Positions 1 to 64,000 of a DNA stretch of 64,000 bases are shown here, piece by piece. Made by a program: the position numbers and the translations under genes. Each line of letters begins with the position of its first letter. Position 1 is the first letter of the stretch. Source of the DNA: Muricea muricata (Eukaryota; Cnidaria; Anthozoa; Malacalcyonacea; Plexauridae); the NCBI GenBank assembly GCA_963855995.1, contig OY979717.1:33509997-33573996 (forward strand). Direction: 5' to 3'. The notes under the pieces were generated by a model. The model saw only the letters and a list, made by a program, of their open reading frames with translations. It made no database searches and was not told the origin of the DNA.

Positions 1-3
1 CAT

Positions 4-11: not shown

Positions 12-17
12 ACAGGC

Positions 18-17695: not shown

Positions 17696-17741
17696 ATGGT
17701 TTTGTTACTATTTTAGACATCAAGAAATTTTAGAAATTTTA

Positions 17742-18676
17742 GACGTCCAGACACAGGCAAAATGGCCATTTTTCAGTATTTTAGGGGATATTTCAAAAAA
17801 GAGCTTTAGGCAATGTAAAAGTGGAGGTTTTTTGGCCAAATTTGGTCAGGAACTCTAATTTGGTATTCTGATCAAAATAAGGATGGTTTCGTTAGTATTT
17901 GAGATATGAGGAAATTTGAGAAATTTTGCATGTCCGGACACAGGCAAAATGGCCATTTTTTAGTATTTTAGGAGGTATTTCAAAAAAGTGGTTTAGGCAA
18001 TGTAAACGTGGAGGTTTTATGGCCAAATTTCGTCAGGAACTCTAATTTGGTATTCTGATCAAAATAAGGATGGTTTGGTTACTATTTGAGACATCAGGAA
18101 ATTTGAGAAATTTTGAATGTCCGGACACAGGCAAAATGGCCATTTTTTAGTATTTTAGGGGGTATTTCAAAAAAGTGCTTTAGGAAATGTAAACGTGGAG
18201 GTTTTCAGGCCAAATTTCGTCAAAAACTCTACTTTGGTATTCTGATATAAATAACGATGGTTTGGTTACTATTTGAGACATCAAGAAATTTGACAAATTT
18301 TGCATGTCCGGACACAGGCAAAATATCCATTTTTCAGTATTTTTTGGGGTATTTAAAAAAAGTTCTTTGGGCAATGTAAAAGTGGAGGTTTTCAGGCCAA
18401 ATTTGGTCAGTAACTCTAATTTTCTATTGTGGTCAAAATAACGATGGTTTGGTTACTATTTGAGACATCAGGAAATTTGAGAAACTTTGCATGTCCGGAC
18501 ACAGGCAAAATATCCATTTTTCAGTATTTAAGAGGGTTTTTAAAAAAAGTGTTTTAGGCAATGTAAAAGTGGAGGTTTTATGGCCAAATTTCGTCAGGAA
18601 CTCTAATTTTGTATTCTGATCAAAATAAGGATGGTTTGGTTACTATTTGAGACATCCAGAAATTTGAGAAATTTTG
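17742..18676 (+). repeat. Partial Domain B HOR, m8 to m12 (935 bp)
   Basis: Five monomers, starting at 17742, 17929, 18116, 18303 and 18490, complete the first 12-mer after the domain junction, which cuts into m7. m8 here has GTCCAGAC in place of GTCCGGAC, and m11 has TTTTTTGGGG where later copies have TTTTAGGGGG. Confidence 0.8.
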
Positions 18677-20917
18677 CATGTCCGGACACAGGCAAAATGG
18701 CCATTTTTCAGTATTTTAGCGGGTATTTGAAAAAAGTGCTTTAGGCAATGTAAAAGTGGAGGTTTTATGGCCAAATTTTGTCAAAAACTCTACTTTGGTA
18801 TTCTGATCAAAATAAGGATGGTTTGGTTACTATTTGAGACATCAAGAAATTTGAGAAATTTTGCATGTCCGGACACAAGCAAAATGGCCATTTTTTAGTA
18901 TTTTAGGGGGTATTTCAAAAAAGTGCTTTAGGAAATGTAAACGTGGAGGTTTTATGGCCAATTTATGTCAGTAACTCTAATTTGGTATTCTGATAAAAAT
19001 AAGGATGGTTTGGTTACTATTTGAGACATCAAGAAATTTGAGAAATTATGCATGTCTGGACAAAGGCAAAATGGCCATTTTTCAGTATTTTAGGTGGTAT
19101 TTCAAAAAAGTACTTTAGGCAATGTAAAAGTGGAGGTTTTATGGCCAAATTTGGTCAGGAACTCTAATTTGGTATTCTGATCAAAATAAGGATGGTTTGG
19201 TTACTATGTGAGACATCAAGAAATTTACAAATGTTGTATGTCCGGACACTGGCAAAATTGCCATTTTTCAGTATTTTTTGGGGTATTTCAAAAGAGCTTT
19301 AGGCAATGAAAAAGTGGAGGTTTTATCGCCAAATTTGGTCAGGAACTCTAATTTGGTATTCTGATTAAAATAAGGATGGTTTGGTTACTATTTTAGACAT
19401 TGAGAAATTTGAGAAATTTATCATGTCTGGACACAGGCAAAATGGCCATTTTTGAGTATTTTTTGGGGTATTTCAAAAAAGAGCAATAGGCAATGTAAAA
19501 GTGGAGGTTTTATGGCCAAAATTGGTCAGGAACTCTAATTAGGTATTCTGATCAAAATAAGGATGGTTTGGTTACTATTTGAGACATCAAGAAATTTGAC
19601 AAATTTTGCATGTCCGGACACAGGGAAAATGGCCATTTTTTAGTATTTTAGGGGGTATTTCAAAAAAGTTCTTTAGGAAATGTAAACGTGGAGGTTTTCA
19701 GGCCAAATTTGGTCAGTAACTCTAATTTTCTATTCTGATCAAAATAACGATGGTTTGGTTACTATTTGAGACATCAAGAAATTTGACAAATTTTGCATGT
19801 CCGGACACAGGGAAAATGGCCATTTTTTAGTATTTTAGGGGGTATTTCAAAAAAGTGCTTTAGGAAATGTAAACGTGGAGGTTTTATGGCCAATTTATGT
19901 CAGTAACTCTAATTTTGTATTCTGATCAAAATAACGATGGTTTTGTTACTATTTTAGACATCAAGAAATTTTAGAAATTTTAGACGTCCGGACACAGGCA
20001 AAATGGCCATTTTTCAGTATTTTAGGGGATATTTCAAAAAAGAGCTTTAGGCAATGTAAAAGTGGAGGTTTTTTGGCCAAATTTGGTCAGGAACTCTAAT
20101 TTGGTATTCTGATCAAAATAAGGATGGTTTCGTTAGTATTTGAGATATGAGGAAATTTGAGAAATTTTGCATGTCCGGACACAGGCAAAATGGCCATTTT
20201 TTAGTATTTTAGGAGGTATTTCAAAAAAGTGGTTTAGGCAATGTAAACGTGGAGGTTTTATGGCCAAATTTCGTCAGGAACTCTAATTTGGTATTCTGAT
20301 CAAAATAAGGATGGTTTGGTTACTATTTGAGACATCAGGAAATTTGAGAAATTTTGCATGTCCGGACACAGGCAAAATGGCCATTTTTTAGTATTTTAGG
20401 GGGTATTTCAAAAAAGTGCTTTAGGAAATGTAAACGTGGAGGTTTTCAGGCCAAATTTCGTCAAAAACTCTACTTTGGTATTCTGATATAAATAACGATG
20501 GTTTGGTTACTATTTGAGACATCAAGAAATTTGACAAATTTTGCATGTCCGGACACAGGCAAAATATCCATTTTTCAGTATTTTAGGGGGTATTTAAAAA
20601 AAGTTCTTTGGGCAATGTAAAAGTGGAGGTTTTCAGGCCAAATTTGGTCAGTAACTCTAATTTTCTATTGTGGTCAAAATAACGATGGTTTGGTTACTAT
20701 TTGAGACATCAGGAAATTTGAGAAACTTTGCATGTCCGGACACAGGCAAAATATCCATTTTTCAGTATTTAAGAGGGTTTTTAAAAAAAGTGTTTTAGGC
20801 AATGTAAAAGTGGAGGTTTTATGGCCAAATTTCGTCAGGAACTCTAATTTTGTATTCTGATCAAAATAAGGATGGTTTGGTTACTATTTGAGACATCCAG
20901 AAATTTGAGAAATTTTG
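18677..20917 (+). repeat. 12-mer HOR, 2,241 bp
   Basis: All twelve types are in order (18677, 18864, 19051, 19237, 19422, 19609, 19796, 19983, 20170, 20357, 20544, 20731). The unit is 2 bp shorter than the canonical 2,243 because the A6 tract of m4 has only four A (at about 19,290). m1 carries TATTTGAAAAAAG, a variant also seen in the unit at 39,790. Confidence 0.85.
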
Positions 20918-23900
20918 CATGTCCGGACACAGGCAAAATGGCCATTTTTCAGTATTTTAGCGGGTATTTCAAAAAAGTGCTTTAGGCAATGTAAAAGTGA
21001 AGGTTTTATGGCCAAATTTTGTCAAAAACTCTACTTTGGTATTCTGATCAAAATAAGGATGGTTTGGTTACTATTTGAGACATCAAGAAATTTGAGAAAT
21101 TTTGCATGTCCGGACACAAGCAAAATGGCCATTTTTTAGTATTTTAGGGGGTATTTCAAAAAAGTGCTTTAGGAAATGTAAACGTGGAGGTTTTATGGCC
21201 AATTTATGTCAGTAACTCTAATTTGGTATTCTGATAAAAATAAGGATGGTTTGGTTACTATTTGAGACATCAAGAAATTTGAGAAATTATGCATGTCTGG
21301 ACAAAGGCAAAATGGCCATTTTTCAGTATTTTAGGTGGTATTTCAAAAAAGTACTTTAGGCAATGTAAAAGTGGAGGTTTTATGGCCAAATTTGGTCAGG
21401 AACTCTAATTTGGTATTCTGATCAAAATAAGGATGGTTTGGTTACTATGTGAGACATCAAGAAATTTACAAATGTTGTATGTCCGGACACTGGCAAAATT
21501 GCCATTTTTCAGTATTTTTTGGGGTATTTCAAAAAAGAGCTTTAGGCAATGAAAAAGTGGAGGTTTTATCGCCAAATTTGGTCAGGAACTCTAATTTGGT
21601 ATTCTGATTAAAATAAGGATGGTTTGGTTACTATTTTAGACATTGAGAAATTTGAGAAAATTATCATGTCTGGACACAGGCAAAATGGCCATTTTTGAGT
21701 ATTTTTTGGGGTATTTCAAAAAAGAGCAATAGGCAATGTAAAAGTGGAGGTTTTATGGCCAAAATTGGTCAGGAACTCTAATTAGGTATTCTGATCAAAA
21801 TAAGGATGGTTTGGTTACTATTTGAGACATCAAGAAATTTGACAAATTTTGCATGTCCGGACACAGGGAAAATGGCCATTTTTTAGTATTTTAGGGGGTA
21901 TTTCAAAAAAGTGCTTTAGGAAATGTAAACGTGGAGGTTTTATGGCCAATTTATGTCAGTAACTCTAATTTTGTATTCTGATCAAAATAACGATGGTTTT
22001 GTTACTATTTTAGACATCAAGAAATTTTAGAAATTTTAGACGTCCGGACACAGGCAAAATGGCCATTTTTCAGTATTTTAGGGGATATTTCAAAAAAGAG
22101 CTTTAGGCAATGTAAAAGTGGAGGTTTTTTGGCCAAATTTGGTCAGGAACTCTAATTTGGTATTCTGATCAAAATAAGGATGGTTTGGTTAGTATTTGAG
22201 ATATGAGGAAATTTGAGAAATTTTGCATGTCCGCACACAGGCAAAATGGCCATTTTTTAGTATTTTAGGAGGTATTTCAAAAAATTGGTTTAGGCAATGT
22301 AAACGTGGAGGTTTTATGGCCAAATTTCGTCAGGAACTCTAATTTGGTATTCTGATCAAAATAAGGATGGTTTGGTTACTATTTGAGACATCAGGAAATT
22401 TGAGAAATTTTGAATGTCCGGACACAGGCAAAATGGCCATTTTTTAGTATTTTAGGGTGTATTTCAAAAAAGTGCTTTAGGAAATGTAAACGTGGAGGTT
22501 TTATGGCCAATTTATGTCAGTAACTCTAATTTGGTATTCTGATAAAAATAAGGATGGTTTGGTTACTATTTGAGACATCAAGAAATTTGAGAAAATTTGC
22601 ATGTCTGGACAAAGGCAAAATGGCCATTTTTCAGTATTTTAGGTGGTATTTCAAAAAAGTACTTTAGGCAATGTAAAAGTGGAGGTTTTATGGCCAAATT
22701 TTGTCAGGAACTCTAATTTGGTATTCTGATTAAAATAAGGATGGTTTGGTTACTATTTTAGACATTGAGAAATTTGAGAAATTTATCATGTCTGGACACA
22801 GGCAAAATGGCCATTTTTGAGTATTTTTTGGGGTATTTCAAAAAAGAGCAATAGGCAATGTAAAAGTGGAGGTTTTATGGCCAAAATTGGTCAGGAACTC
22901 TAATTAGGTATTCTGATCAAAATAAGGATGGTTTGGTTACTATTTGAGACATCAAGAAATTTGACAAATTTTGCATGTCCGAACACAGGCAAAATGGCCA
23001 TTTTTTAGTATTTTAGGGGGTATTTCAAAAAAGTGCTTTAGGAAATGTAAACGTGGAGGTTTTATGGCCAATTTATGTCAGTAACTCTAATTTGGTATTC
23101 TGATCAAAATAAGGATGGTTTGGTTACTATTTGAGACATCAAGAAATTTTAGAAATTTTGCATGTCCGGACACAGGGAAAATGGCCATTTTTTAGTATTT
23201 TAGGGGGTATTTAAAAAAAGTTCTTTAGGAAATGTAAACGTGGAGGTTTTATGGTCAAATTATGTCAGTAGCTCTAATTTGGTATTCTGATCAAAATAAC
23301 GATGGTTTGGTTACTATTTTAGACATCAAGAAATTTTAGAAATTTTAGACGTCCGGACACAGGCAAAATGGCCATTTTTCAGTATTTTAGGGGATATTTC
23401 AAAAAAGAGCTTTAGGCAATGAAAAAGTGGAGGTTTTTTGGCCAAATTTGGTCAGGAACTCTAATTTGGTATTCTGATCAAAATAAGGATGGTTTGGTTA
23501 GTATTTGAGATATGAGGAAATTTGAGAAATTTTGCATGTCCGGACACAGGCAAAATGGCCATTTTTTAGTATTTTAGGAGGTATTTCAAAAAAGTGGTTT
23601 AGGCAATGTAAACTTGGAGGTTTTATGGCCAAATTTCGTCAGGAACTCTAATTTGGTATTCTGATCAAAATAAGGATGGTTTGGTTACTATTTGAGACAT
23701 CAGGAAATTTGAGAAATTTTGAATGTCCGGACACAGGCAAAATGGCCAGTTTTTAGTATTTTAGGGGGTATTTCAAAAAAGTGCTTTAGGAAATGTAAAC
23801 GTGGAGGTTTTCAGGCCAAATTTCGTCAAAAACTCTACTTTGGTATTCTGATATAAATAACGATGGTTTGGTTACTATTTGAGACATCAAGAAATTTGAC

Positions 23901-31751: not shown

Positions 31752-32686
31752 CATGTCCGGACACAGGCAAAATGGCCATTTTTCAGTATTTTAGCGGGTA
31801 TTTCAAAAAAGTGCTTTAGGCAATGTAAAAGTGGAGGTTTTATGGCCAAATTTTGTCAAAAACTCTACTTTGGTATTCTGACCAAAATAAGGATGGTTTG
31901 GTTACTATTTGAGACATCAAGAAATTTGAGAAATTTTGCATGTCCGGACACAAGCAAAATGGCCATTTTTTAGTATTTTAGGGGGTATTTCAAAAAAGTG
32001 CTTTAGGAAATGTAAACGTGGAGGTTTTATGGCCAAATTTCGTCAGGAACTCTAATTTGGTATTCTGATCAAAATAAGGATGGTTTGGTTACTATTTGAG
32101 ACATCAGCAAATTTGAGAAATTTTGAATGTCCGGACACAGGCAAAATGGCCATTTTTTAGTATTGTAGGGGGTATTTCAAAAAAGTGCTTTAGGAAATGT
32201 AAACGTGGAGGTTTTCAGGCCAAATTTCGTCAAAAACTCTACTTTGGTATTCTGATATAAATAACGATGGTTTGGTTACTATTTGAGACATCAAGAAATT
32301 TGACAAATTTTGCATGTCCGGACAGAGGCAAAATATCCATTTTTCAGTATTTTAGGGGGTATTTAAAAAAAGTTCTTTGGGCAATGTAAAAGTGGAGGTT
32401 TTCAGGCCAAATTTGGTCAGTAACTCTAATTTTCTATTGTGGTCAAAATAACGATGGTTTGGTTACTATTTGAGACATCAGGAAATTTGAGAAACTTTGC
32501 ATGTCCGGACACAGGCAAAATATCCATTTTTCAGTATTTAAGAGGGTTTTTAAAAAAAGTGTTTTAGGCAATGTAAAAGTGGAGGTTTTATGGCCAAATT
32601 TCGTCAGGAACTCTAATTTTGTATTCTGATCAAAATAAGGATGGTTTGGTTACTATTTGAGACATCCAGAAATTTGAGAAATTTTG
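31752..32686 (+). repeat. 5-mer unit m1, m2/m9, m10, m11, m12 (935 bp)
   Basis: Five monomers of exactly 187 bp. The second starts as m2 (GGACACAAGC) and ends as m9 (TTTCGTCAGG and an AGCAAATTTGAG variant). It is a 12-mer lacking seven monomers through an m2/m9 exchange. Confidence 0.8.
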
Positions 32687-34929
32687 CATGTCCGGACACA
32701 GGCAAAATGGCCATTTTTCAGTATTTTAGCGGGTATTTCAAAAAAGTGCTTTAGGCAATGTAAAAGTGGAGGTTTTATGGCCAAATTTTGTCAAAAACTC
32801 TACTTTGGTATTCTGATCAAAATAAGGATGGTTTGGTTACTATTTGAGACATCAAGAAATTTGAGAAATTTTGCATGTCCGGACACAAGCAAAATGGCCA
32901 TTTTTTAGTATTTTAGGGGGTATTTCAAAAAAGTGCTTTAGGAAATGTAAACGTGGAGGTTTTATGGCCAATTTATGTCAGTAACTCTAATTTGGTATTC
33001 TGATAAAAATAATAATGGTTTGGTTACTATTTGAGACATCAAGAAATTTGAGAAATTATGCATGTCTGGACAAAGGCAAAATGGCCATTTTTCAGTATTT
33101 TAGGTGGTATTTCAAAAAAGTACTTTAGGCAATGTAAAAGTGGAGGTTTTATGGCCAAATTTGGTCAGGAACTCTAATTTGGTATTCTGATCAAAATAAG
33201 GATGGTTTGGTTACTATGTGAGACATCAAGAAATTTACAAATGTTGTATGTCCGGACACTGGCAAAATGGCCATTTTTCAGTATTTTTTGGGGTATTTCA
33301 AAAAAGAGCTTTAGGCAATGAAAAAGTGGAGGTTTTATCGCCAAATTTGGTCAGGAACTCTAATTTGGTATTCTGATTAAAATAAGGATGGTTTGGTTAC
33401 TATTTTAGACATTGAGAAATTTGAGAAATTTATCATGTCTGGACACAGGCAAAATGGCCATTTTTGAGTATTTTTTGGGGTATTTCAAAAAAGAGCAATA
33501 GGCAATGTAAAAGTGGAGGTTTTATGGCCAAAATTGGTCAGGAATTCTAATTAGGTATTCTGATCAAAATAAGGATGGTTTGGTTACTATTTGAGACATC
33601 AAGAAATTTGACAAATTTTGCATGTCCGGACACAGGGAAAATGGCCATTTTTTAGTATTTTAGGGGGTATTTCAAAAAAGTTCTTTAGGAAATGTAAACG
33701 TGGAGGTTTTCAGGCCAAATTTGGTCAGTAACTCTAATTTTCTATTCTGATCAAAATAACGATGGTTTGGTTACTATTTGAGACATCAAGAAATTTGACA
33801 AATTTTGCATGTCCGGACACAGGGAAAATGGCCATTTTTTAGTATTTTAGGGGGTATTTCAAAAAAGTGCTTTAGGAAATGTAAACGTGGAGGTTTTATG
33901 GCCAATTTATGTCAGTAACTCTAATTTTGTATTCTGATCAAAATAACGATGGTTTTGTTACTATTTTAGACATCAAGAAATTTTAGAAATTTTAGACGTC
34001 CGGACACAGGCAAAATGGCCATTTTTCAGTATTTTAGGGGATATTTCAAAAAAGAGCTTTAGGCAATGTAAAAGTGGAGGTTTTTTGGCCAAATTTGGTC
34101 AGGAACTCTAATTTGGTATTCTGATCAAAATAAGGATGGTTTCGTTAGTATTTGAGATATGAGGAAATTTGAGAAATTTTGCATGTCCGGACACAGGCAA
34201 AATGGCCATTTTTTAGTATTTTAGGAGGTTTTTCAAAAAAGTGGTTTAGGCAATGTAAACGTGGAGGTTTTATTGCCAAATTTCGTCAGGAACTCTAATT
34301 TGGTATTCTGATCAAAATAAGGATGGTTTGGTTACTATTTGAGACATCAGGAAATTTGAGAAATTTTGAATGTCCGGACACAGGCAAAATGGCCATTTTT
34401 TAGTATTTTAGGGGGTATTTCAAAAAAGTGCTTTAGGAAATGTAAACGTGGAGGTTTTCAGGCCAAATTTCGTCAAAAACTCTACTTTGGTATTCTGATA
34501 TAAATAACGATGGTTTGGTTACTATTTGAGACATCAAGAAATTTGACAAATTTTGCATGTCCGGACAGAGGCAAAATATCCATTTTTCAGTATTTTAGGG
34601 GGTATTTAAAAAAAGTTCTTTGGGCAATGTAAAAGTGGAGGTTTTCAGGCCAAATTTGGTCAGTAACTCTAATTTTCTATTGTGGTCAAAATAACGATGG
34701 TTTGGTTACTATTTGAGACATCAGGAAATTTGAGAAACTTTGCATGTCCGGACACAGGCAAAATATCCATTTTTCAGTATTTAAGAGGGTTTTTAAAAAA
34801 AGTGTTTTAGGCAATGTAAAAGTGGAGGTTTTATGGCCAAATTTCGTCAGGAACTCTAATTTTGTATTCTGATCAAAATAAGGATGGTTTGGTTACTATT
34901 TGAGACATCCAGAAATTTGAGAAATTTTG
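32687..34929 (+). repeat. Canonical 12-mer HOR (2,243 bp)
   Basis: Complete m1-m12. Copy-specific changes include AATAATAATGG in m2 (about 33,008), GGAATTC in place of GGAACTC in m5 (about 33,541) and GGAGGTTTTTC in m9. m11 carries GGACAGAGGC. Confidence 0.86.
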
Positions 34930-46883: not shown

Positions 46884-47070
46884 CATGTCCGGACACAAGC
46901 AAAATGGCCATTTTTTAGTATTTTAGGGGGTATTTCAAAAAAGTGCTTTAGGAAATGTAAACGTGGAGGTTTTATGGCCAATTTATGTCAGTAACTCTAA
47001 TTTGGTATTCTGATAAAAATAAGGATGGTTTGGTTACTATTTGAGACATCAAGAAATTTGAGAAATTATG
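46884..47070 (+). repeat. Monomer m2 (reference)
   Basis: Diagnostic: GGACACAAGC, CCAATTTATGTCAG, CTGATAAAAATAAGG, and an ending GAAATTATG. Confidence 0.88.
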
Positions 47071-47256
47071 CATGTCTGGACAAAGGCAAAATGGCCATTT
47101 TTCAGTATTTTAGGTGGTATTTCAAAAAAGTACTTTAGGCAATGTAAAAGTGGAGGTTTTATGGCCAAATTTGGTCAGGAACTCTAATTTGGTATTCTGA
47201 TCAAAATAAGGATGGTTTGGTTACTATGTGAGACATCAAGAAATTTACAAATGTTG
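47071..47256 (+). repeat. Monomer m3 (reference, 186 bp)
   Basis: Diagnostic: GTCTGGACAAAGGC, TTAGGTGGTATTTC, AGTACTTTAGG, CTATGTGAGACATC and AATTTACAAATGTTG. It is one base shorter than the others, which explains the 2,243-bp rather than 2,244-bp period. Confidence 0.88.
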
Positions 47257-47443
47257 TATGTCCGGACACTGGCAAAATGGCCATTTTTCAGTATTTTTTG
47301 GGGTATTTCAAAAAAGAGCTTTAGGCAATGAAAAAGTGGAGGTTTTATCGCCAAATTTGGTCAGGAACTCTAATTTGGTATTCTGATTAAAATAAGGATG
47401 GTTTGGTTACTATTTTAGACATTGAGAAATTTGAGAAATTTAT
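47257..47443 (+). repeat. Monomer m4 (reference)
   Basis: Diagnostic: TATGTCCGGACACTGGC, AATGAAAAAGTGG, TTATCGCCAAATTTGG, CTGATTAAAATAAGG and GACATTGAG. Two haplotypes exist along the array, with AAAATGGCC or AAAATTGCC. Confidence 0.88.
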
Positions 47444-47630
47444 CATGTCTGGACACAGGCAAAATGGCCATTTTTGAGTATTTTTTGGGGTATTTCAAAA
47501 AAGAGCAATAGGCAATGTAAAAGTGGAGGTTTTATGGCCAAAATTGGTCAGGAACTCTAATTAGGTATTCTGATCAAAATAAGGATGGTTTGGTTACTAT
47601 TTGAGACATCAAGAAAATTGACAAATTTTG
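47444..47630 (+). repeat. Monomer m5 (reference)
   Basis: Diagnostic: GTCTGGACAC, TTTTTGAGTATTTTTTGGGG, GAGCAATAGG, CCAAAATTGGTCAGG, CTAATTAGGTATT and TTGACAAATTTTG. Confidence 0.88.
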
Positions 47631-47817
47631 CATGTCCGGACACAGGGAAAATGGCCATTTTTTAGTATTTTAGGGGGTATTTCAAAAAAGTTCTTTAGGA
47701 AATGTAAACGTGGAGGTTTTCAGGCCAAATTTGGTCAGTAACTCTAATTTTCTATTCTGATCAAAATAACGATGGTTTGGTTACTATTTGAGACATCAAG
47801 AAATTTGACAAATTTTG
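47631..47817 (+). repeat. Monomer m6 (reference)
   Basis: Diagnostic: ACACAGGGAAAATGG, AAAGTTCTTTAGGAAATG, TTTTCAGGCCAAATTTGG and TAATTTTCTATTCTG. Missing at 21,852 and present twice in the unit at 58,829. Confidence 0.87.
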
Positions 47818-48004
47818 CATGTCCGGACACAGGGAAAATGGCCATTTTTTAGTATTTTAGGGGGTATTTCAAAAAAGTGCTTTAGGAAATGTAAACGTGG
47901 AGGTTTTATGGCCAATTTATGTCAGTAACTCTAATTTTGTATTCTGATCAAAATAACGATGGTTTTGTTACTATTTTAGACATCAAGAAATTTTAGAAAT
48001 TTTA
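47818..48004 (+). repeat. Monomer m7 (reference)
   Basis: Diagnostic: ACACAGGGAAAATGG with GTGCTTTAGGAAATG, CCAATTTATGTC, TAATTTTGTATTC, GATGGTTTTGTTAC and the ending AATTTTAGACGTCC. Its tail forms the Domain A/B junction at 17.69 kb. Confidence 0.87.
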
Positions 48005-48191
48005 GACGTCCGGACACAGGCAAAATGGCCATTTTTCAGTATTTTAGGGGATATTTCAAAAAAGAGCTTTAGGCAATGTAAAAGTGGAGGTTTTTTGGCC
48101 AAATTTGGTCAGGAACTCTAATTTGGTATTCTGATCAAAATAAGGATGGTTTCGTTAGTATTTGAGATAGGAGAAAATTTGAGAAATTTTG
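48005..48191 (+). repeat. Monomer m8 (reference)
   Basis: Starts GACGTCCGG instead of CATGTCCGG. Diagnostic: TAGGGGATATTTC, GGTTTTTTGGCC, GGTTTCGTTAG and TTTGAGATA followed by a GAG-rich tail. Confidence 0.87.
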
Positions 48192-48378
48192 CATGTCCGG
48201 ACACAGGCAAAATGGCCATTTTTTAGTATTTTAGGAGGTATTTCAAAAAAGTGGTTTAGGCAATGTAAACGTGGAGGTTTTATTGCCAAATTTCGTCAGG
48301 AACTCTAATTTGGTATTCTGATCAAAATAAGGATGGTTTGGTTACTATTTGAGACATCAGGAAATTTGAGAAATTTTG
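48192..48378 (+). repeat. Monomer m9 (reference)
   Basis: Diagnostic: TAGGAGGTATTTC, AGTGGTTTAGG, TTTATTGCC (TTTATGGCC in units before about 32 kb), TTTCGTCAGG and CATCAGGAAATTTG. Confidence 0.87.
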
Positions 48379-48565
48379 AATGTCCGGACACAGGCAAAAT
48401 GGCCATTTTTTAGTATTTTAGGGGGTATTTCAAAAAAGTGCTTTAGGAAATGTAAACGTGGAGGTTTTCAGGCCAAATTTCGTCAAAAACTCTACTTTGG
48501 TATTCTGATATAAATAACGATGGTTTGGTTACTATTTGAGACATCAAGAAATTTGACAAATTTTG
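48379..48565 (+). repeat. Monomer m10 (reference)
   Basis: Starts AATGTCC. Diagnostic: TTTCGTCAAAAACTCTACTT and CTGATATAAATAACG. Last monomer of the unit with the intact AAAATGGCCATTTT dyad. Confidence 0.87.
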
Positions 48566-48752
48566 CATGTCCGGACACAGGCAAAATATCCATTTTTCAG
48601 TATTTTAGGGGGTATTTAAAAAAAGTTCTTTGGGCAATGTAAAAGTGGAGGTTTTCAGGCCAAATTTGGTCAGTAACTCTAATTTTCTATTGTGATCAAA
48701 ATAACGATGGTTTGGTTACTATTTGAGACATCGGGAAATTTGAGAAACTTTG
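48566..48752 (+). repeat. Monomer m11 (reference)
   Basis: Diagnostic: AAAATATCC (dyad lost), TATTTAAAAAAAGTTC, TTTGGGCAATG, CTATTGTGATC and GAAACTTTG at the end. An older form has CTATTGTGGTC. Confidence 0.87.
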
Positions 48753-48939
48753 CATGTCCGGACACAGGCAAAATATCAATTTTTCAGTATTTAAGAGGGT
48801 TTTTAAAAAAAGTGTTTTAGGCAATGTAAAAGTGGAGGTTTTATGGCCAAATTTCGTCAGGAACTCTAATTTGGTATTCTGATCAAAATAAGGATGGTTT
48901 GGTTACTATTTGAGACATCCAGAAATTTGAGAAATTTTG
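48753..48939 (+). repeat. Monomer m12 (reference)
   Basis: Diagnostic: AAAATATCAAT or AAAATATCCAT (dyad lost), TATTTAAGAGGG, TTTTTAAAAAAAGTG and CATCCAG. The AAAATATCAAT form is shared with the units at 48,940 and 58,829. Confidence 0.87.
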
Positions 48940-51182
48940 CATGTCCGGACACAGGCAAAATGGCCATTTTTCAGTATTTTAGCGGGTATTTCAAAAAAGT
49001 GCTTTAGGCAATGTAAAAGTGGAGGTTTTATGGCCAAATTTTGTCAAAAACTCTACTTTGGTATTCTGATCAAAATAAGGATGGTTTGGTTACTATTTGA
49101 GACATCAAGAAATTTGAGAAATTTTGCATGTCCGGACACAAGCAAAATGGCCATTTTTTAGTATTTTAGGGGGTATTTCAAAAAAGTGCTTTAGGAAATG
49201 TAAACGTGGAGGTTTTATGGCCAATTTATGTAAGTAACTCTAATTTGGTATTCTGATAAAAATAAGGATGGTTTGGTTACTATTTGAGACATCAAGAAAT
49301 TTGAGAAATTATGCATGTCTGGACAAAGGCAAAATGGCCATTTTTCAGTATTTTAGGTGGTATTTCAAAAAAGTACTTTAGGCAATGTAAAAGTGGAGGT
49401 TTTATGGCCAAATTTGGTCAGGAACTCTAATTTGGTATTCTGATCAAAATAAGGATGGTTTGGTTACTATGTGAGACATCAAGAAATTTACAAATGTTGT
49501 ATGTCCGGACACTGGCAAAATGGCCATTTTTCAGTATTTTTTGGGGTATTTCAAAAAAGAGCTTTAGGCAATGAAAAAGTGGAGGTTTTATCGCCAAATT
49601 TGGTCAGGAACTCTAATTTGGTATTCTGATTAAAATAAGGATGGTTTGGTTAGTATTTTAGACATTGAGAAATTTGAGAAATTTATCATGTCTGGACACA
49701 GGCAAAATGGCCATTTTTGAGTATTTTTTGGGGTATTTCAAAAAAGAGCAATAGGCAATGTAAAAGTGGAGGTTTTATGGCCAAAATTGGTCAGGAACTC
49801 TAATTAGGTATTCTGATCAAAATAAGGATGGTTTGGTTACTATTTGAGACATCAAGAAAATTGACAAATTTTGCATGTCCGGACACAGGGAAAATGGCCA
49901 TTTTTTAGTATTTTAGGGGGTATTTCAAAAAAGTTCTTTAGGAAATGTAAACGTGGAGGTTTTCAGGCCAAATTTGGTCAGTAACTCTAATTTTCTATTC
50001 TGATCAAAATAACGATGGTTTGGTTACTATTTGAGACATCAAGAAATTTGACAAATTTTGCATGTCCGGACACAGGGAAAATGGCCATTTTTTAGTATTT
50101 TAGGGGGTATTTCAAAAAAGTGCTTTAGGAAATGTAAACGTGGAGGTTTTATGGCCAATTTATGTCAGTAACTCTAATTTTGTATTCTGATCAAAATAAC
50201 GATGGTTTTGTTACTATTTTAGACATCAAGAAATTTTAGAAATTTTAGACGTCCGGACACAGGCAAAATGGCCATTTTTCAGTATTTTAGGGGATATTTC
50301 AAAAAAGAGCTTTAGGCAATGTAAAAGTGGAGGTTTTTTGGCCAAATTTGGTCAGGAACTCTAATTTGGTATTCTGATCAAAATAAGGATGGTTTCGTTA
50401 GTATTTGAGATATGAGAAAATTTGAGAAATTTTGCATGTCCGGACACAGGCAAAATGGCCATTTTTTAGTATTTTAGGAGGTATTTCAAAAAAGTGGTTT
50501 AGGCAATGTAAACGTGGAGGTTTTATTGCCAAATTTCGTCAGGAACTCTAATTTGGTATTCTGATCAAAATAAGGATGGTTTGGTTACTATTTGAGACAT
50601 CAGGAAATTTGAGAAATTTTGAATGTCCGGACACAGGCAAAATGGCCATTTTTTAGTATTTTAGGGGGTATTTCAAAAAAGTGCTTTAGGAAATGTAAAC
50701 GTGGAGGTTTTCAGGCCAAATTTCGTCAAAAACTCTACTTTGGTATTCTGATATAAATAACGATGGTTTGGTTACTATTTGAGACATCAAGAAATTTGAC
50801 AAATTTTGCATGTCCGGACACAGGCAAAATATCCATTTTTCAGTATTTTAGGGGGTATTTAAAAAAAGTTCTTTGGGCAATGTAAAAGTGGAGGTTTTCA
50901 GGCCAAATTTGGTCAGTAACTCTAATTTTCTATTGTGATCAAAATAACGATGGTTTGGTTACTATTTGAGACATCGGGAAATTTGAGAAACTTTGCATGT
51001 CCGGACACAGGCAAAATATCAATTTTTCAGTATTTAAGAGGGTTTTTAAAAAAAGTGTTTTAGGCAATGTAAAAGTGGAGGTTTTATGGCCAAATTTCGT
51101 CAGGAACTCTAATTTTGTATTCTGATCAAAATAAGGATGGTTTGGTTACTATTTGAGACATCCAGAAATTTGAGAAATTTTG
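48940..51182 (+). repeat. Canonical 12-mer HOR (2,243 bp)
   Basis: Complete m1-m12, nearly the same as the unit to its left and sharing its private changes AAGAAAATTGAC (about 49,855) and GAGAAAATTTGAG (about 50,415). Its own changes include ATGTAAGTAAC in m2 and GGTTAGTATTTTAG in m4. Confidence 0.89.
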
Positions 51183-53791
51183 CATGTCCGGACACAGGCA
51201 AAATGGCCATTTTTCAGTATTTTAGCGGGTATTTCAAAAAAGTGCTTTAGGCAATGTAAAAGTGGAGGTTTTATGGCCAAATTTTGTCAAAAACTCTACT
51301 TTGGTATTCTGATCAAAATAAGGATGGTTTGGTTACTATTTGAGACATCAAGAAATTTGAGAAATTTTGCATGTCCGGACACAAGCAAAATGGCCATTTT
51401 TTAGTATTTTAGGGGGTATTTCAAAAAAGTGCTTTAGGAAATGTAAACGTGGAGGTTTTATGGCCAATTTATGTCAGTAACTCTAATTTGGTATTCTGAT
51501 AAAAATAAGGATGGTTTGGTTACTATTTGAGACATCAAGAAATTTGAGAAATTATGCATGTCTGGACAAAGGCAAAATGGCCATTTTTCAGTATTTTAGG
51601 TGGTATTTCAAAAAAGTACTTTAGGCAATGTAAAAGTGGAGGTTTTATGGCCAAATTTGGTCAGGAACTCTAATTTGGTATTCTGATCAAAATAAGGATG
51701 GTTTGGTTACTATGTGAGACATCAAGAAATTTACAAATGTTGTATGTCCGGACACTGGCAAAATTGCCATTTTTCAGTATTTTTTGGGGTATTTCAAAAA
51801 AGAGCTTTAGGCAATGAAAAAGTGGAGGTTTTATCGCCAAATTTGGTCAGGAACTCTAATTTGGTATTCTGATTAAAATAAGGATGGTTTGGTTACTATT
51901 TTAGACATTGAGAAATTTGAGAAAATTATCATGTCTGGACACAGGCAAAATGGCCATTTTTGAGTATTTTTTGGGGTATTTCAAAAAAGAGCAATAGGCA
52001 ATGTAAAAGTGGAGGTTTTATGGCCAAAATTGGTCAGGAACTCTAATTAGGTATTCTGATCAAAATAAGGATGGTTTGGTTACTATTTGAGACATCAAGA
52101 AATTTGACAAATTTTGCATGTCCGGACACAGGGAAAATGGCCATTTTTTAGTATTTTAGGGGGTATTTCAAAAAAGTTCTTTAGGAAATGTAAACGTGGA
52201 GGTTTTCAGGCCAAATTTGGTCAGTAACTCTAGTTTTCTATTCTGATCAAAATAACGATGGTTTGGTTACTATTTGAGACATCAAGAAATTTGACAAATT
52301 TTGCATGTCCGGACACAGGGAAAATGGCCATTTTTTAGTATTTTAGGGGGTATTTCAAAAAAGTGCTTTAGGAAATGTAAACGTGGAGGTTTTATGGCCA
52401 ATTTATGTCAGTAACTCTAATTTTGTATTCTGATCAAAATAACGATGGTTTTGTTACTATTTTAGACATCAAGAAATTTTAGAAATTTTAGACGTCCGGA
52501 CACAGGCAAAATGGCCATTTTTCAGTATTTTAGGGGATATTTCAAAAAAGAGCTTTAGGCAATGTAAAAGTGGAGGTTTTTTGGCCAAATTTGGTCAGGA
52601 ACTCTAATTTGGTATTCTGATCAAAATAAGGATGGTTTCGTTAGTATTTGAGATATGAGGAAATTTGAGAAATTTTGCATGTCCGGACACAGGCAAAATG
52701 GCCATTTTTTAGTATTTTAGGAGGTATTTCAAAAAAGTGGTTTAGGCAATGTAAACGTGGAGGTTTTATTGCCAAATTTCGTCAGGAACTCTAATTTGGT
52801 ATTCTGATCAAAATAAGGATGGTTTGGTTACTATTTGAGACATCAGGAAATTTGAGAAATTTTGAATGTCCGGACACAGGCAAAATGGCCATTTTTTAGT
52901 ATTTTAGGGGGTATTTCAAAAAAGTGCTTTAGGAAATGTAAACGTGGAGGTTTTCAGGCCAAATTTCGTCAAAAACTCTACTTTGGTATTCTGATATAAA
53001 TAACGATGGTTTGGTTACTATTTGAGACATCAAGAAATTTGACAAATTTTGCATGTCCGGACACAGGCAAAATATCCATTTTTCAGTATTTTAGGGGGTA
53101 TTTAAAAAAAGTTCTTTGGGCAATGTAAAAGTGGAGGTTTTCAGGCCAAATTTGGTCAGTAACTCTAATTTTCTATTCTGATCAAAATAAGGATGGTTTT
53201 GTTACTATTTGAGACATCAAGAAATTTGAGAAATTTTGCATGTCCGGACACAGGCAAAATATCCATTTTTCAGTATTTTAGGGGGTACTTAAAAAAAGTT
53301 CTTTGGGCAATGTAAAAGTGGAGGTTTTCAGGCCAAATTTGGTCAGTAACTCTAATTTTCTATTCTGATCAAAATAAGGATGGTTTGGTTACTATTTGAG
53401 ACATCAAGAAATTTGAGAAATTTTGCATGTCCGGACACAGGCAAAATATCCATTTTTCAGTATTTTAGGGGGTATTTAAAAAAAGTTCTTTGGGCAATGT
53501 AAAAGTGGAGGTTTTCAGGCCAAATTTGGTCGGTAACTCTAATTTTCTATTCTGATCAAAATATCGATGGTTTGGTTACTATTTGAGACATCGGGAAATT
53601 TGAGAAACTTCCGGACACAGGAAAATATCCATTTTTCAGTAGTTAAGGGGTTTTTTAAAAAAAGTGTTTTAGGAAATGTAAAAGTGGAGGTTTTATGGCC
53701 AAATTTCGTCAGGAACTCTAATTTTGTATTCTGATCAAAATAAGGATGGTTTTGTTACTATTTGAGACATCCAGAAATTTGAGAAATTTTG
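51183..53791 (+). repeat. 12-mer/C-unit fusion, 14 monomers (2,609 bp)
   Basis: m1-m10 (51183 to 53051), then an m11 whose tail is of C type (CTATTCTGATCAAAATAAGG, 53052), then c2 (53239), c3 (53426) and truncated c4 (53610). The switch lies in m11, in TAATTTTCTATT shared by both types. The same fusion of the same length is at 61,259-63,867. Confidence 0.83.
53610..53791 (+). repeat. Truncated m12-like monomer (c4)
   Basis: Same eight-base loss as at 25776, in a C segment spliced behind m1-m11 of a 12-mer. Confidence 0.85.
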
Positions 53792-56407: not shown

Positions 56408-58828
56408 CATGTCCGGACACAGGCAAAATGGCCATTTTTCAGTATTTTAGCGGATATTTCAAAAAAGTGCTTTAGACAATGTAAAAGTGGAGGTTTTATG
56501 GCCAAATTTTGTCAAAAACTCTACTTTGGTATTCTGATCAAAATAAGGATGGTTTGGTTACTATTTGAGACATCAAGAAATTTGAGAAATTTTGCATGTC
56601 CGGACAAAGGCAAACTGGCCATTTTTTAGTATCTTAGGGGGTATTTAAAAAAAGTTCTTTGGGCAATGTAAAAGTGGAGGTTTTATGGCCAAATTTGGTC
56701 AGTAACTCTAATTTTCTATTCTGATCAAAATAAGGATGGTTTTGTTACTATTTGAGACATCAAGAAATTTGAGAAATTTTGCATGTCCGGACACAGGCAA
56801 AATATCCATTTTTCAGTATTTTAGGGGGTACTTAAAAAAAGTTCTTTGGGCAATGTAAAAGTGGAGGTTTTCAGGCCAAATTTGGTCAGTAACTCTAATT
56901 TTCTATTCTGATCAAAATAAGGATGGTTTGGTTACTATTTGAGACATCAAGAAATTTGAGAAATTTTGCATGTCCGGACACAGGCAAAATATCCATTTTT
57001 CAGTATTTTAGGGGGTATTTAAAAAAAGTTCTTTGGGCAATGTAAAAGTGGAGGTTTTCAGGCCAAATTTGGTCGGTAACTCTAATTTTCTATTCTGATC
57101 AAAATATCGATGGTTTGGTTACTATTTGAGACATCGGGAAATTTGAGAAACTTCCGGACACAGGAAAATATCCATTTTTCAGTAGTTAAGGGGTTTTTTA
57201 AAAAAAGTGTTTTAGGAAATGTAAAAGTGGAGGTTTTATGGCCAAATTTCGTCAGGAACTCTAATTTTGTATTCTGATCAAAATAAGGATGGTTTTGTTA
57301 CTATTTGAGACATCCAGAAATTTGAGAAATTTTGCATGTCCGGACAGAGGCAAAATGGCCATTTTTCAGTATTTTAGCGGGTATTTCAAAAAAGTGTTTT
57401 AGGCAATATAAAAGTGGATCTTTTATGGCCAAATTTCGTCAAAAACTCTACTTTGGTATTCTGATCAAAATAAGGATGGTTTGGTTACTATTTGAGACAT
57501 CAAGAAATTTGAGAAATTTTGCATGTCCGGACACAGGCAAACTGGCCATTTTTTAGTATTTTAGGGGGTATTTAAAAAAAGTTCTTTGGGCAATGTAAAA
57601 GTGGAGGTTTTCAGGCCAAATTTGTCAGTAACTCTAATTTTCTATTCTGATAAAAATAACGATGGTTTGGTTACTATTTGAAACATCAAGAAATTTGAGA
57701 AATTTTGCATGCCCGGACACAGGCAAAATATCCATTTTTCAGTATTTTAGGGGGTATTTAAAAAAAGTTCTTTGGGCAATGTAAAAGTGGAGGTTTTCAG
57801 GCCAAATTTGGTCAGTAACTCTAATTTTCTATTCTGATCAAAATAACGATGGTTTGGTTACTATTTGAGACATCGGGAAATTTGAGAAACTTTGCATATC
57901 CGGACACAGGAAAAATATCCATTTTTCAGTATTTAAGGGGTTTTTTAAAAAAAGTGTTTTAGGCAGTGTAAAAGTGGAGGTTTTATGGCCAAATTTCGTC
58001 AGGAACTCTAATTTTGTATTCTGATCAAAATAAGTATGGTTTGGTTACTATTTGAGACATCCAGAAATTTGAGGGATTTTGCATGTCCGGACACAGGAAA
58101 AATGGCCATTTTTCAGTATTTTAGCGGGTATTTCAAAAAAGTGCTTTAGGCAATATAAAAGTGGAGGTTTTAGTGCCAAATTTGGTCAAAAACTCTACTT
58201 TGGTATTCTGATCAAAATAAGGATGGTTTGGTTACTATTTGAGACATCAAGAAATTTGAGAAATTTTGCATGTCCGGACACAGGCAAACTGGCCATTTTT
58301 TAGTATTTTAGGGGGTATTTAAAAAAAGTTCTTTGGGCAATGTAAAAGTGGAGGTTTTCAGGCCAAATTTGTCAGTAACTCTAATTTTCTATTCTGATAA
58401 AAATAACGATGGTTTGGTTACTATTTGAAACATCAAGAAATTTTAGAAATTTTGCATGTCCGGACACGGGCAAAATATCCATTTTTCAGTATTTTAGGGG
58501 GTATTTAAAAAAAGTTCTTTGGGCAATGTAAAAGTGGAGGTTTTCAGGCCAAATTTGGTCAGTAACTCTAATTTTCTATTCTGATCAAAATAACGATGGT
58601 TTGGTTACTATTTGAGACATCGGGAAATTTGAGAAACTTTGCATATCCGGACACAGGCAAAATATCCATTTTTCAGTATTTAAGGGGGTTTTTAAAAAAA
58701 GTGTTTTAGGCAATGTAAAAGTGGAGGTTTTTTGGCCAAATTTGGTCAGGAACTCTAATTTGGTATTCTGATCAAAATAAGGATGGTTTGGTTACTATTT
58801 GAGACATCCAGAAATTTGAGAAATTTTG
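56408..58828 (+). repeat. C unit, 13-mer HOR (2,421 bp), copy 3
   Basis: Matches copy 2 at an offset of exactly 12,132 bp for every m1-like monomer (44276/56408, 45203/57335, 45950/58082, 46697/58829). A visible difference is AAATTTAAGAAATTTTG just before it, at about 56,391. Confidence 0.86.
57153..57334 (+). repeat. Truncated m12-like monomer (c4)
   Basis: Same loss of TTGCATG and one further base as in the other C units. Confidence 0.85.
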
Positions 58829-61258
58829 CATGTCCGGACACAGGCAAAATGGCCATTTTTCAGTATTTTAGCGGGTATTTCAAAAAAGTGCTTTAGGCAA
58901 TGTAAAAGTGGAGGTTTTATGGCCAAATTTTGTCAAAAACTCTACTTTGGTATTCTGATCAAAATAAGGATGGTTTGGTTACTATTTGAGACATCAAGAA
59001 ATTTGAGAAATTTTGCATGTCCGGACACAAGCAAAATGGCCATTTTTTAGTATTTTAGGGGGTATTTCAAAAAAGTGCTTTAGGAAATGTAAACGTGGAG
59101 GTTTTATGGCCAATTTATGTCAGTAACTCTAATTTGGTATTCTGATAAAAATAAGGATGGTTTGGTTACTATTTGAGACATCAAGAAATTTGAGAAATTA
59201 TGCATGTCTGGACAAAGGCAAAATGGCCATTTTTCAGTATTTTAGGTGGTATTTCAAAAAAGTACTTTAGGCAATGTAAAAGTGGAGGTTTTATGGCCAA
59301 ATTTGGTCAGGAACTCTAATTTGGTATTCTGATCAAAATAAGGATGGTTTGGTTACTATGTGAGACATCAAGAAATTTACAAATGTTGTATGTCCGGACA
59401 CTGGCAAAATGGCCATTTTTCAGTATTTTTTGGGGTATTTCAAAAAAGAGCTTTAGGCAATGAAAAAGTGGAGGTTTTATCGCCAAATTTGGTCAGGAAC
59501 TCTAATTTGGTATTCTGATTAAAATAAGGATGGTTTGGTTACTATTTTAGACATTGAGAAATTTGAGAAATTTATCATGTCTGGACACAGGCAAAATGGC
59601 CATTTTTGAGTATTTTTTGGGGTATTTCAAAAAAGAGCAATAGGCAATGTAAAAGTGGAGGTTTTATGGCCAAAATTGGTCAGGAACTCTAATTAGGTAT
59701 TCTGATCAAAATAAGGATGGTTTGGTTACTATTTGAGACATCAAGAAATTTGACAAATTTTGCATGTCCGGACACAGGGAAAATGGCCATTTTTTAGTAT
59801 TTTAGGGGGTATTTCAAAAAAGTTCTTTAGGAAATGTAAACGTGGAGGTTTTCAGGCCAAATTTGGTCAGTAACTCTAATTTTCTATTCTGATCAAAATA
59901 ACGATGGTTTGGTTACTATTTGAGACATCAAGAAATTTGACAAATTTTGCATGTCCGGACACAGGGAAAATGGCCATTTTTTAGTATTTTAGGGGGTATT
60001 TCAAAAAAGTGCTTTAGGAAATGTAAACGTGGAGGTTTTCAGGCCAAATTTGGTCAGTAACTCTAATTTTCTATTCTGATCAAAATAACGATGGTTTGGT
60101 TACTATTTGAGACATCAAGAAATTTGACAAATTTTGCATGTCCGGACACAGGGAAAATGGCCATTTTTTAGTATTTTAGGGGGTATTTCAAAAAAGTGCT
60201 TTAGGAAATGTAAACATGGAGGTTTTATGGCCAATTTATGTCAGTAACTCTAATTTTGTATTCTGATCAAAATAACGATGGTTTTGTTACTATTTTAGAC
60301 ATCAAGAAATTTTAGAAATTTTAGACGTCCGGACACAGGCAAAATGGCCATTTTTCAGTATTTTAGGGGATATTTCAAAAAAGAGCTTTAGGCAATGTAA
60401 AAGTGGAGGTTTTTTGGCCAAATTTGGTCAGGAACTCTAATTTGGTATTCTGATCAAAATAAGGATGGTTTCGTTAGTATTTGAGATATGAGGAAATTTG
60501 AGAAATTTTGCATGTCCGGACACAGGCAAAATGGCCATTTTTTAGTATTTTAGGAGGTATTTCAAAAAAGTGGTTTAGGCAATGTAAACGTGGAGGTTTT
60601 ATTGCCAAATTTCGTCAGGAACTCTAATTTGGTATTCTGATCAAAATAAGGATGGTTTGGTTACTATTTGAGACATCAGGAAATTTGAGAAATTTTGAAT
60701 GTCCGGACACAGGCAAAATGGCCATTTTTTAGTATTTTAGGGGGTATTTCAAAAAAGTGCTTTAGGAAATGTAAACGTGGAGGTTTTCAGGCCAAATTTC
60801 GTCAAAAACTCTACTTTGGTATTCTGATATAAATAACGATGGTTTGGTTACTATTTGAGACATCAAGAAATTTGACAAATTTTGCATGTGCGGACACAGG
60901 CAAAATATCCATTTTTCAGTATTTTAGGGGGTATTTAAAAAAAGTTCTTTGGGCAATGTAAAAGTGGAGGTTTTCAGGCCAAATTTGGTCAGTAACTCTA
61001 ATTTTCTATTGTGATCAAAATAACGATGGTTTGGTTACTATTTGAGACATCGGGAAATTTGAGAAACTTTGCATGTCCGGACACAGGCAAAATATCAATT
61101 TTTCAGTATTTAAGAGGGTTTTTAAAAAAAGTGTTTTAGGCAATGTAAAAGTGGAGGTTTTATGGCCAAATTTCGTCAGGAACTCTAATTTTGTATTCTG
61201 ATCAAAATAAGGATGGTTTGGTTACTATTTGAGACATCCAGAAATTTGAGAAATTTTG
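58829..61258 (+). repeat. 13-monomer variant of the 12-mer (2,430 bp)
   Basis: m1-m6, then a second m6-like monomer at 59950 (GTGCTTTAGG front as in m7, CAGGCCAAATTTGG back as in m6), then m7-m12. Length is 2,243 plus 187. m7 has AAACATGG and m11 starts CATGTGCGG. Confidence 0.84.
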
Positions 61259-64000
61259 CATGTCCGGACACAGGCAAAATGGCCATTTTTCAGTATTTTA
61301 GCGGGTATTTCAAAAAAGTGCTTTAGGCAATGTAAAAGTGGAGGTTTTATGGCCAAATTTTGTCAAAAACTCTACTTTGGTATTCTGATCAAAATAAGGA
61401 TGGTTTGGTTACTATTTGAGACATCAAGAAATTTGAGAAATTTTGCATGTCCGGACACAAGATAAATGGCCATTTTTTAGTATTTTAGGGGGTATTTCAA
61501 AAAAGTGCTTTAGGAAATGTAAACGTGGAGGTTTTATGGCCAATTTATGTCAGTAACTCTAATTTGGTATTCTGATAAAAATAAGGATGGTTTGGTTACT
61601 ATTTGAGACATCAAGAAATTTGAGAAATTATGCATGTCTGGACAAAGGCAAAATGGCCATTTTTCAGTATTTTAGGTGGTATTTCAAAAAAGTACTTTAG
61701 GCAATGTAAAAGTGGAGGTTTTATGGCCAAATTTGGTCAGGAACTCTAATTTGGTATTCTGATCAAAATAAGGATGGTTTGGTTACTATGTGAGACATCA
61801 AGAAATTTACAAATGTTGTATGTCCGGACACTGGCAAAATGGCCATTTTTCAGTATTTTTTGGGGTATTTCAAAAAAGAGCTTTAGGCAATGAAAAAGTG
61901 GAGGTTTTATCGCCAAATTTGGTCAGGAACTCTAATTTGGTATTCTGATTAAAATAAGGATGGTTTGGTTACTATTTTAGACATTGAGAAATTTGAGAAA
62001 ATTATCATGTCTGGACACAGGCAAAATGGCCATTTTTGAGTATTTTTTGGGGTATTTCAAAAAAGAGCAATAGGCAATGTAAAAGTGGAGGTTTTATGGC
62101 CAAAATTGGTCAGGAACTCTAATTAGGTATTCTGATCAAAATAAGGATGGTTTGGTTACTATTTGAGACATCAAGAAATTTGACAAATTTTGCATGTCCG
62201 GACACAGGGAAAATGGCCATTTTTTAGTATTTTAGGGGGTATTTCAAAAAAGTTCTTTAGGAAATGTAAACGTGGAGGTTTTCAGGCCAAATTTGGTCAG
62301 TAACTCTAATTTTCTATTCTGATCAAAATAACGATGGTTTGGTTACTATTTGAGACATCAAGAAATTTGACAAATTTTGCATGTCCGGACACAGGGAAAA
62401 TGGCCATTTTTTAGTATTTTAGGGGGTATTTCAAAAAAGTGCTTTAGGAAATGTAAACGTGGAGGTTTTATGGCCAATTTATGTCAGTAACTCTAATTTT
62501 GTATTCTGATCAAAATAACGATGGTTTTGTTACTATTTTAGACATCAAGAAATTTTAGAAATTTTAGACGTCCGGACACAGGCAAAATGGCCATTTTTCA
62601 GTATTTTAGGGGATATTTCAAAAAAGAGCTTTAGGCAATGTAAAAGTGGAGGTTTTTTGGCCAAATTTGGTCAGGAACTCTAATTTGGTATTCTGATCAA
62701 AATAAGGATGGTTTCGTTAGTATTTGAGATATGAGGAAATTTGAGAAATTTTGCATGTCCGGACACAGGCAAAATGGCCATTTTTTAGTATTTTAGGAGG
62801 TATTTCAAAAAAGTGGTTTAGGCAATGTAAACGTGGAGGTTTTATTGCCAAATTTCGTCAGGAACTCTAATTTGGTATTCTGATCAAAATAAGGATGGTT
62901 TGGTTACTATTTGAGACATCAGGAAATTTGAGAAATTTTGAATGTCCGGACACAGGCAAAATGGCCATTTTTTAGTATTTTAGGGGGTATTTCAAAAAAG
63001 TGCTTTAGGAAATGTAAACGTGGAGGTTTTCAGGCCAAATTTCGTCAAAAACTCTACTTTGGTATTCTGATATAAATAACGATGGTTTGGTTACTATTTG
63101 AGACATCAAGAAATTTGACAAATTTTGCATGTCCGGACACAGGCAAAATATCCATTTTTCAGTATTTTAGGGGGTATTTAAAAAAAGTTCTTTGGGCAAT
63201 GTAAAAGTGGAGGTTTTCAGGCCAAATTTGGTCAGTAACTCTAATTTTCTATTCTGATCAAAATAAGGATGGTTTTGTTACTATTTGAGACATCAAGAAA
63301 TTTGAGAAATTTTGCATGTCCGGACACAGGCAAAATATCCATTTTTCAGTATTTTAGGGGGTACTTAAAAAAAGTTCTTTGGGCAATGTAAAAGTGGAGG
63401 TTTTCAGGCCAAATTTGGTCAGTAACTCTAATTTTCTATTCTGATCAAAATAAGGATGGTTTGGTTACTATTTGAGACATCAAGAAATTTGAGAAATTTT
63501 GCATGTCCGGACACAGGCAAAATATCCATTTTTCAGTATTTTAGGGGGTATTTAAAAAAAGTTCTTTGGGCAATGTAAAAGTGGAGGTTTTCAGGCCAAA
63601 TTTGGTCGGTAACTCTAATTTTCTATTCTGATCAAAATATCGATGGTTTGGTTACTATTTGAGACATCGGGAAATTTGAGAAACTTCCGGACACAGGAAA
63701 ATATCCATTTTTCAGTAGTTAAGGGGTTTTTTAAAAAAAGTGTTTTAGGAAATGTAAAAGTGGAGGTTTTATGGCCAAATTTCGTCAGGAACTCTAATTT
63801 TGTATTCTGATCAAAATAAGGATGGTTTTGTTACTATTTGAGACATCCAGAAATTTGAGAAATTTTGCATGTCCGGACAGAGGCAAAATGGCCATTTTTC
63901 AGTATTTTAGCGGGTATTTCAAAAAAGTGTTTTAGGCAATATAAAAGTGGATCTTTTATGGCCAAATTTCGTCAAAAACTCTACTTTGGTATTCTGATCA
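61259..64000 (+). repeat. 12-mer/C-unit fusion, cut by the window end
   Basis: m1-m10, m11/C hybrid (63128), c2 (63315), c3 (63502), truncated c4 (63686) and the first part of c5 (63868). Repeats 51,183 onward at an offset of 10,076 bp. m2 has the private change GGACACAAGATAAATGG at about 61,455. The array continues past the window. Confidence 0.84.
63686..63867 (+). repeat. Truncated m12-like monomer (c4)
   Basis: Fifth copy of the eight-base deletion monomer, 10,076 bp after that at 53610. Confidence 0.85.

Follow-up and report, generated by a model that had tools for sequence, protein, structure and literature searches.

The locus raises the question of whether its tandem monomers form a true higher-order repeat (HOR), and what kind of array they belong to. 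The window, that is, the whole 64,000-bp stretch of DNA presented here (C2:33,509,997-33,573,996), lies on contig C2 (71,685,601 bp) of a 453-Mb assembly in 74 contigs, and it consists entirely of a 187-bp array for which TRF counts 342.7 copies. The array sits near the middle of this 71.7-Mb contig. We analyzed the contiguous stretch C2:33,499,997-33,748,996 (249 kb), of which the first 242 kb are array: satellite runs unbroken, except for twelve inserts, from 33,499,997 to about 33,741,980, where the array ends. Further left, five 5-kb samples reaching down to position 33,209,997 (45-300 kb left of the window) all proved to be satellite, and the array probably spans at least 532 kb if there is no gap between these samples. 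All 1,265 BLAST monomer matches within the 249 kb fall on the plus strand, giving the analyzed array a single orientation, and no second satellite was found in the 242 kb of array analyzed.

Decomposition of the 249-kb stretch yielded 1,251 monomers with a mean identity to the consensus of 93.9%, and average-linkage clustering at a 4% threshold sorted them into 61 clusters, or types (T), of which 16 are singletons. Of these monomers, 342 lie whole within the window, including 247 in positions 17,742-64,000, and the types of the window separate into two domains as follows:

1..17741, plus strand: left domain, another set of 187-bp monomers (type string and lag table)
17742: abrupt border where the left set gives way to the twelve types, at a monomer boundary (monomer-by-monomer differences)
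17742..64000, continuing to about window-relative 98,000, plus strand: 12-monomer HOR domain (type and order counts)

The monomer consensus contains three perfect palindromes of 14, 10, and 10 bp, namely, AAAATGGCCATTTT, TGTCCGGACA, and CCAAATTTGG, the first two of which are placed here:

Consensus columns 18-31: palindrome AAAATGGCCATTTT
Consensus columns 3-12: palindrome TGTCCGGACA, containing the sole CpG of the consensus

This CpG is changed to TpG or CpA in at least a fifth of the monomers (CCGGAC in 933 of 1,251, CTGGAC in 240, and CCAGAC in 29). The observed/expected CpG ratio was 0.445 across the 249 kb (counting the inserts and 7 kb of flanking sequence), versus 0.91-1.05 in four flank loci, a comparison that says little about the array because each monomer has about one CpG. 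Folding of four 150-base monomer pieces as single-stranded DNA was no better than that of shuffled sequences (z = 0.62, 1.10, -1.26, and 1.25), and a CENP-B box motif had no match on either strand of the 249 kb.

Twelve monomer types in a fixed order

Across positions 17,742-64,000, twelve types account for 221 of the 247 monomers, and their canonical order, counted from 17,742, is T4-T3-T14-T5-T13-T6-T1-T10-T12-T2-T7-T8. The preliminary description had claimed twelve distinguishable monomer types in fixed order, and this was borne out: 173 of the 246 adjacent pairs keep the canonical order, against a mean of 17.0 and a maximum of 31 in 2,000 shuffles. With clustering thresholds of 2, 3, 4, 5, and 6%, the number of in-order pairs was 127, 166, 173, 183, and 167 of 246, respectively, two of the twelve core types fusing at 6%; with 127 to 183 pairs in order over this range, the result does not depend on one threshold. 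Autocorrelation of the whole window gave its top peak at 187 and, among multiples of at least six units, its top peak at exactly 2,243, the two maxima that had been foreseen for a 12-monomer HOR. Monomers one HOR apart were also more alike than random pairs, the lag-12 identity in 17,742-64,000 being 0.9237 versus 0.9034 over 500 permutations (maximum, 0.9102); the rise of the mean from 0.903 to merely 0.924 is small because the canonical runs are interrupted.

Complete units running from T4 to T8 occur eight times in the 242 kb of array, five of them inside the window:

17,742, plus strand: start of a complete unit
41,098, plus strand: start of a complete unit
48,005, plus strand: start of a complete unit
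50,248, plus strand: start of a complete unit
60,324, plus strand: start of a complete unit

Six of the eight units measure 2,243 bp, and the remaining two measure 2,241 and 2,242 bp. Identity between units ranges from 99.24 to 99.96% (mean, 99.59%; 28 pairs from the eight complete units), whereas monomers within a unit are 84.5 to 94.7% identical (mean, 89.9%; 528 pairs). Distinguishable monomers are thus repeated in fixed order as a unit, and the copies of this unit are far more alike than the monomers inside it (99.6% versus 89.9%), as had been anticipated for a HOR. The positions from which the 2,243-bp spacing had originally been read (32,687, 34,930, 39,790, 42,033, 44,276, 46,697, 48,940, and 51,183) all proved to be base 1 of a T6. 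The deficit of one base against twelve full monomers had been attributed to a 186-bp third monomer, m3; with T6 taken as m1, m3 is T10, and all 14 copies of T10 in 17,742-64,000 measure 186 bp, so that 12 x 187 - 1 = 2,243. One such copy is located as follows:

40164..40349, plus strand: T10, 186-bp monomer (placed from the type string)

The 2,243-bp lag covers 45.1% of 17,742-64,000 at 95% identity or more over 187 bp, and other lags also cover sizeable parts of this region (33.7% for 748 and 30.8% for 2,430). No lag scores better in the window than lag 12; 25.5% of 235 lag-12 pairs reach at least 97% identity. Eleven canonical runs comprise six monomers or more (22, 6, 6, 17, 12, 9, 29, 37, 11, 8, and 18 monomers, in order). 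Deletions and duplications interrupt them, as does a variant cassette of 13 monomers (types 35 5 5 22 6 15 5 33 6 15 5 13 6). The longest runs and the cassette copies in the window are listed below:

17742..21851, plus strand: 22-monomer canonical run, one full unit and most of a second
31939..35116, plus strand: 17-monomer canonical run
39042..44462, plus strand: 29-monomer canonical run
44463..46883, plus strand: variant cassette, 13 monomers
46323..53238, plus strand: 37-monomer canonical run, the longest in the window
56595..59015, plus strand: variant cassette, second copy (end placed from the type string)
59950..63314, plus strand: 18-monomer canonical run

Three copies of the cassette were found, at 44,463, 56,595, and 67,232, the last beyond the window, with a mean identity of 0.9995; the cassette apparently arose where the HOR segment T14-T5-T13-T6 expanded locally. 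The array is therefore not a uniform, uninterrupted 12-mer, its longest run of 37 monomers amounting to about three units. This non-uniformity restricts any claim of uniformity and leaves the HOR itself intact. Of the preliminary description, the HOR stands, but the picture of a plain 12-mer array does not, since the runs are broken and 7-mer and LTR-bearing units dominate outside the window.

Layers on either side of the 12-mer domain

The left domain is composed mainly of types T16, T17, T20, T21, T25-T28, T36, and T37 and has patchy repeats of its own, for which the best lags below 60 are 43, 53, and 10 monomers. All five leftward samples (26 monomers each) belong to this left set, with best matches of 96-100% and a single cut monomer at 87%. 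The left domain further includes a divergent patch about 3.7-5.6 kb to the left of the window, made of singleton types 46-52 together with a single T2 and a single T3 (locus L031, C2:33,499,997-33,509,996).

To the right of the window, the 12-mer continues until about window-relative 98,000 and then gives way to 7-mers and to longer units that bear an LTR-like insert. Of two 7-mers, T4-T3-T1-T9-T2-T1-T11 is the commoner, with 23 copies at a mean identity of 99.5%, one of them within the 12-mer domain at 22,039; the other, T4-T3-T1-T9-T2-T7-T8, is present in eight copies that are 99.9% identical. Type T9 corresponds to the 5' part of T10 joined at column 92 to the 3' part of T31, with two differences; by difference lists, T12 fits equally well as the 3' source, also with two differences. 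From these sequences, T4-T3-T1-T9-T2-T7-T8 would be derivable from the 12-mer by removal of T14-T5-T13-T6 and fusion of T10-T12 as T9. We take the 12-mer to be the older of the two, since a single fusion is more economical than two independent splits, but the T1-T11 ending of the commoner 7-mer is left unexplained by this simple derivation and counts against the scheme. When every sixth 12-monomer block was compared with its best match, the mean identity came to 0.991 and 0.993 for the 12-mer and 7-mer/LTR domains, respectively, and to 0.962 for the left domain; this last value is biased downward because 147 monomers were compared there versus 429 and 674 in the other two. At the right edge of the array, the best match of the last monomers drops from 1.0 to 0.877 (0.97, 0.91, 0.89, and 0.88).

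Twelve inserts, each exactly 660 bp long and situated at the same monomer position, lie beyond the window in C2:33,630,533-33,740,972; one of them is located here:

L014:6537-7196: one 660-bp insert

The inserts are 99.1-100% identical (mean, 99.75%; 12 inserts) and are flanked on each side by the same ten bases in 12 of 12 cases, with two positions varying further left. Each can be read as TG...CA with CTGT duplicated at the target (4 bp) or, if another end is taken, with ACTGT duplicated (5 bp), a structure that fits a solo LTR. The simplest account of the twelve inserts is that one insertion was copied along with its surroundings by amplification of the array. Seven of their 11 spacings are 7.6-8.9 kb, and the rest are 6.5, 10.9, 14.5, and 19.2 kb.

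The right flank presented some features of its own. A reverse transcriptase piece was found at L026:3-734 (Pfam RVT_1, 1.5e-19), the only one of five flank protein pieces with a Pfam match, the other four giving none. This piece and the other LINE fragments of the flank may resemble cnidarian LINEs. The five flank loci had no match in Rfam. Tandem repeats are also present in this flank, namely, a 13-bp AT-rich repeat at L025:7786-8762 and a 16-bp repeat at 4486-4724.

Comparison with other satellites

Human and ape alpha satellite is built from monomers of about 171 bp that are more divergent than 90% alike, and human centromere arrays are homogeneous inside with a divergent edge. The array described here resembles alpha satellite in its roughly nucleosome-length monomers, in multimers of fixed order whose copies are more alike than their monomers, in its distinct adjacent domains, and in its divergent edge. 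It differs from alpha satellite in its monomer length of 187 bp, in a less regular HOR, in having no CENP-B box match in 249 kb, and in within-unit monomers that are 90% alike, those of alpha satellite being more divergent.

HORs had been said to be reported less often outside primates, a point that needs correcting: the excerpt of PMC4053949 states that, of 171 species for which Sanger data were available, 76 have clear HORs, and calls them widespread in plants and animals, and excerpts of PMC8022941 and PMC7368989 describe clear HORs on many chromosomes in the 186-bp CENP-A satellite of the stickleback. Many other species are already known to have such layered HORs. Stickleback Y monomers, as excerpted from the same two papers, are 89.5% alike on average. 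By description in these excerpts, the threespine stickleback satellite is like the present one in its near-equal monomer length, AT-richness, and clear HOR; the two differ in that CENP-A was demonstrated there and a centromere role is putative here. The stickleback as source was rejected: C2, at 71.7 Mb, is out of keeping with the sizes of its chromosomes, and the CpG ratio of 0.91-1.05 in four flank loci does not resemble the CpG depletion of vertebrates. The excerpt of PMC11394905 describes AbipSat01-187 of Adalia bipunctata, which is likewise a 187-bp monomer and pericentromeric by description but alternates with an 8-bp satellite and occurs in both orientations. Judged by this description, Adalia bipunctata was rejected as a source, the present array having one orientation and no second satellite in 242 kb. 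The assembly of that beetle also comprises 11 chromosomal and 103 unplaced scaffolds, as against 74 contigs here. The excerpt of PMC9005458 deals with a coral karyotype using repeated-gene markers, and no centromere satellite appears in it. For Eunicella, weighed as a possible source, a chromosome-level study of E. cavolini gives 17 chromosomes. The preliminary description held that the family may be undescribed; a 15-base piece of the monomer occurred in no paper text, a negative of little weight, since monomer sequences are seldom printed in articles. A search of the cnidarian and octocoral literature found no HOR centromere, which does not show that none is in print.

Alternative readings and the probable nature of the array

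Two of the alternatives that we weighed bear on the HOR itself. The array could be a patchwork of copied segments that lacks any true HOR, the 2,243-bp spacing being one of many, and long high-identity runs at many other lags (e.g., 65, 49, 37, and 162 monomers) as well as the 55% of the region that lag 2,243 leaves uncovered speak for such a view. However, high-identity runs in the window add up to 68 monomers at lag 12, more than at any other lag (34 for the next), the canonical order far exceeds that of shuffles, and according to the type string, long runs found here at the other lags link copies of the same 12-mer order. We consider this reading improbable: it is largely refuted by the order test, yet it still describes the array at large scale. 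Far less probable still is an assembly artefact, in which the assembler would have created or duplicated the monomer order. Large near-identical blocks, such as exact repeats of 6,919 bp (30.4 kb apart) and 5,443 bp (10.6 kb apart), speak for such an error, but the complete units differ from one another by 0.04-0.76%, the window is free of any N, and the 12-mer order is seen again in eleven separate runs. Moreover, usual HiFi reads are longer than 6,919 bp, the longest exact repeat in the 249 kb.

The remaining alternative accepts the HOR and concerns the role of the array, which could be heterochromatin with no part in the kinetochore, whether pericentromeric or interstitial, its HORs arising by unequal exchange as they may in any long satellite. 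Recombination alone suffices to produce HOR structure, and the array showed neither a CENP-B box match nor unusual folding. Against this, the array is long, lies mid-contig, and is one-directional where analyzed, and its homogeneity and edge decay are as in centromere arrays. We regard heterochromatin of this kind as rather unlikely, though a more serious competitor than the previous two.

The reading that we favor with reasonable confidence is that the window is part of the main satellite array of C2, a putative centromere or pericentromere core with layered HORs. The size of the array, its single orientation, mid-contig place, HOR layering, and edge decay argue for a centromeric or core pericentromeric satellite. 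On the other side stand the negative results for a CENP-B box in 249 kb and for unusual folding of four monomer pieces, and a genome search, with 2 of 214 candidates scored, in which the 13 matches listed were all on C2. We propose that several tens of types first arose within the 187-bp monomer family and that blocks of neighboring types were then repeatedly copied, presumably by unequal exchange or a similar process. Successive layers would have resulted, namely, the left set, the 12-mer, a derived 7-mer, and longer LTR-carrying units (mostly about 8 kb). The step from 12-mer to 7-mer may have involved the loss of T14-T5-T13-T6 and the fusion of T10 with T12 into T9, should it have run in this direction. 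Under this proposal, CENP-A chromatin would be expected on the homogeneous middle or right part (12-mer or 7-mer/LTR) and not on the divergent right edge.

More tentatively, the array may be a centromere assembled at chromosome scale, with HOR layers standing side by side that preserve the sequence of expansions, as they do in human centromeres; its bearer would be a marine invertebrate and, to judge by the LINE fragments of the flank, perhaps a cnidarian. If the array is a centromere, it would offer a readable record of HOR growth outside primates, in which two monomers fused, four were lost, and a marker insertion traveled with the units. The array would then also provide a test, in a distant species, of the rule that the youngest and most homogeneous layer holds the kinetochore.
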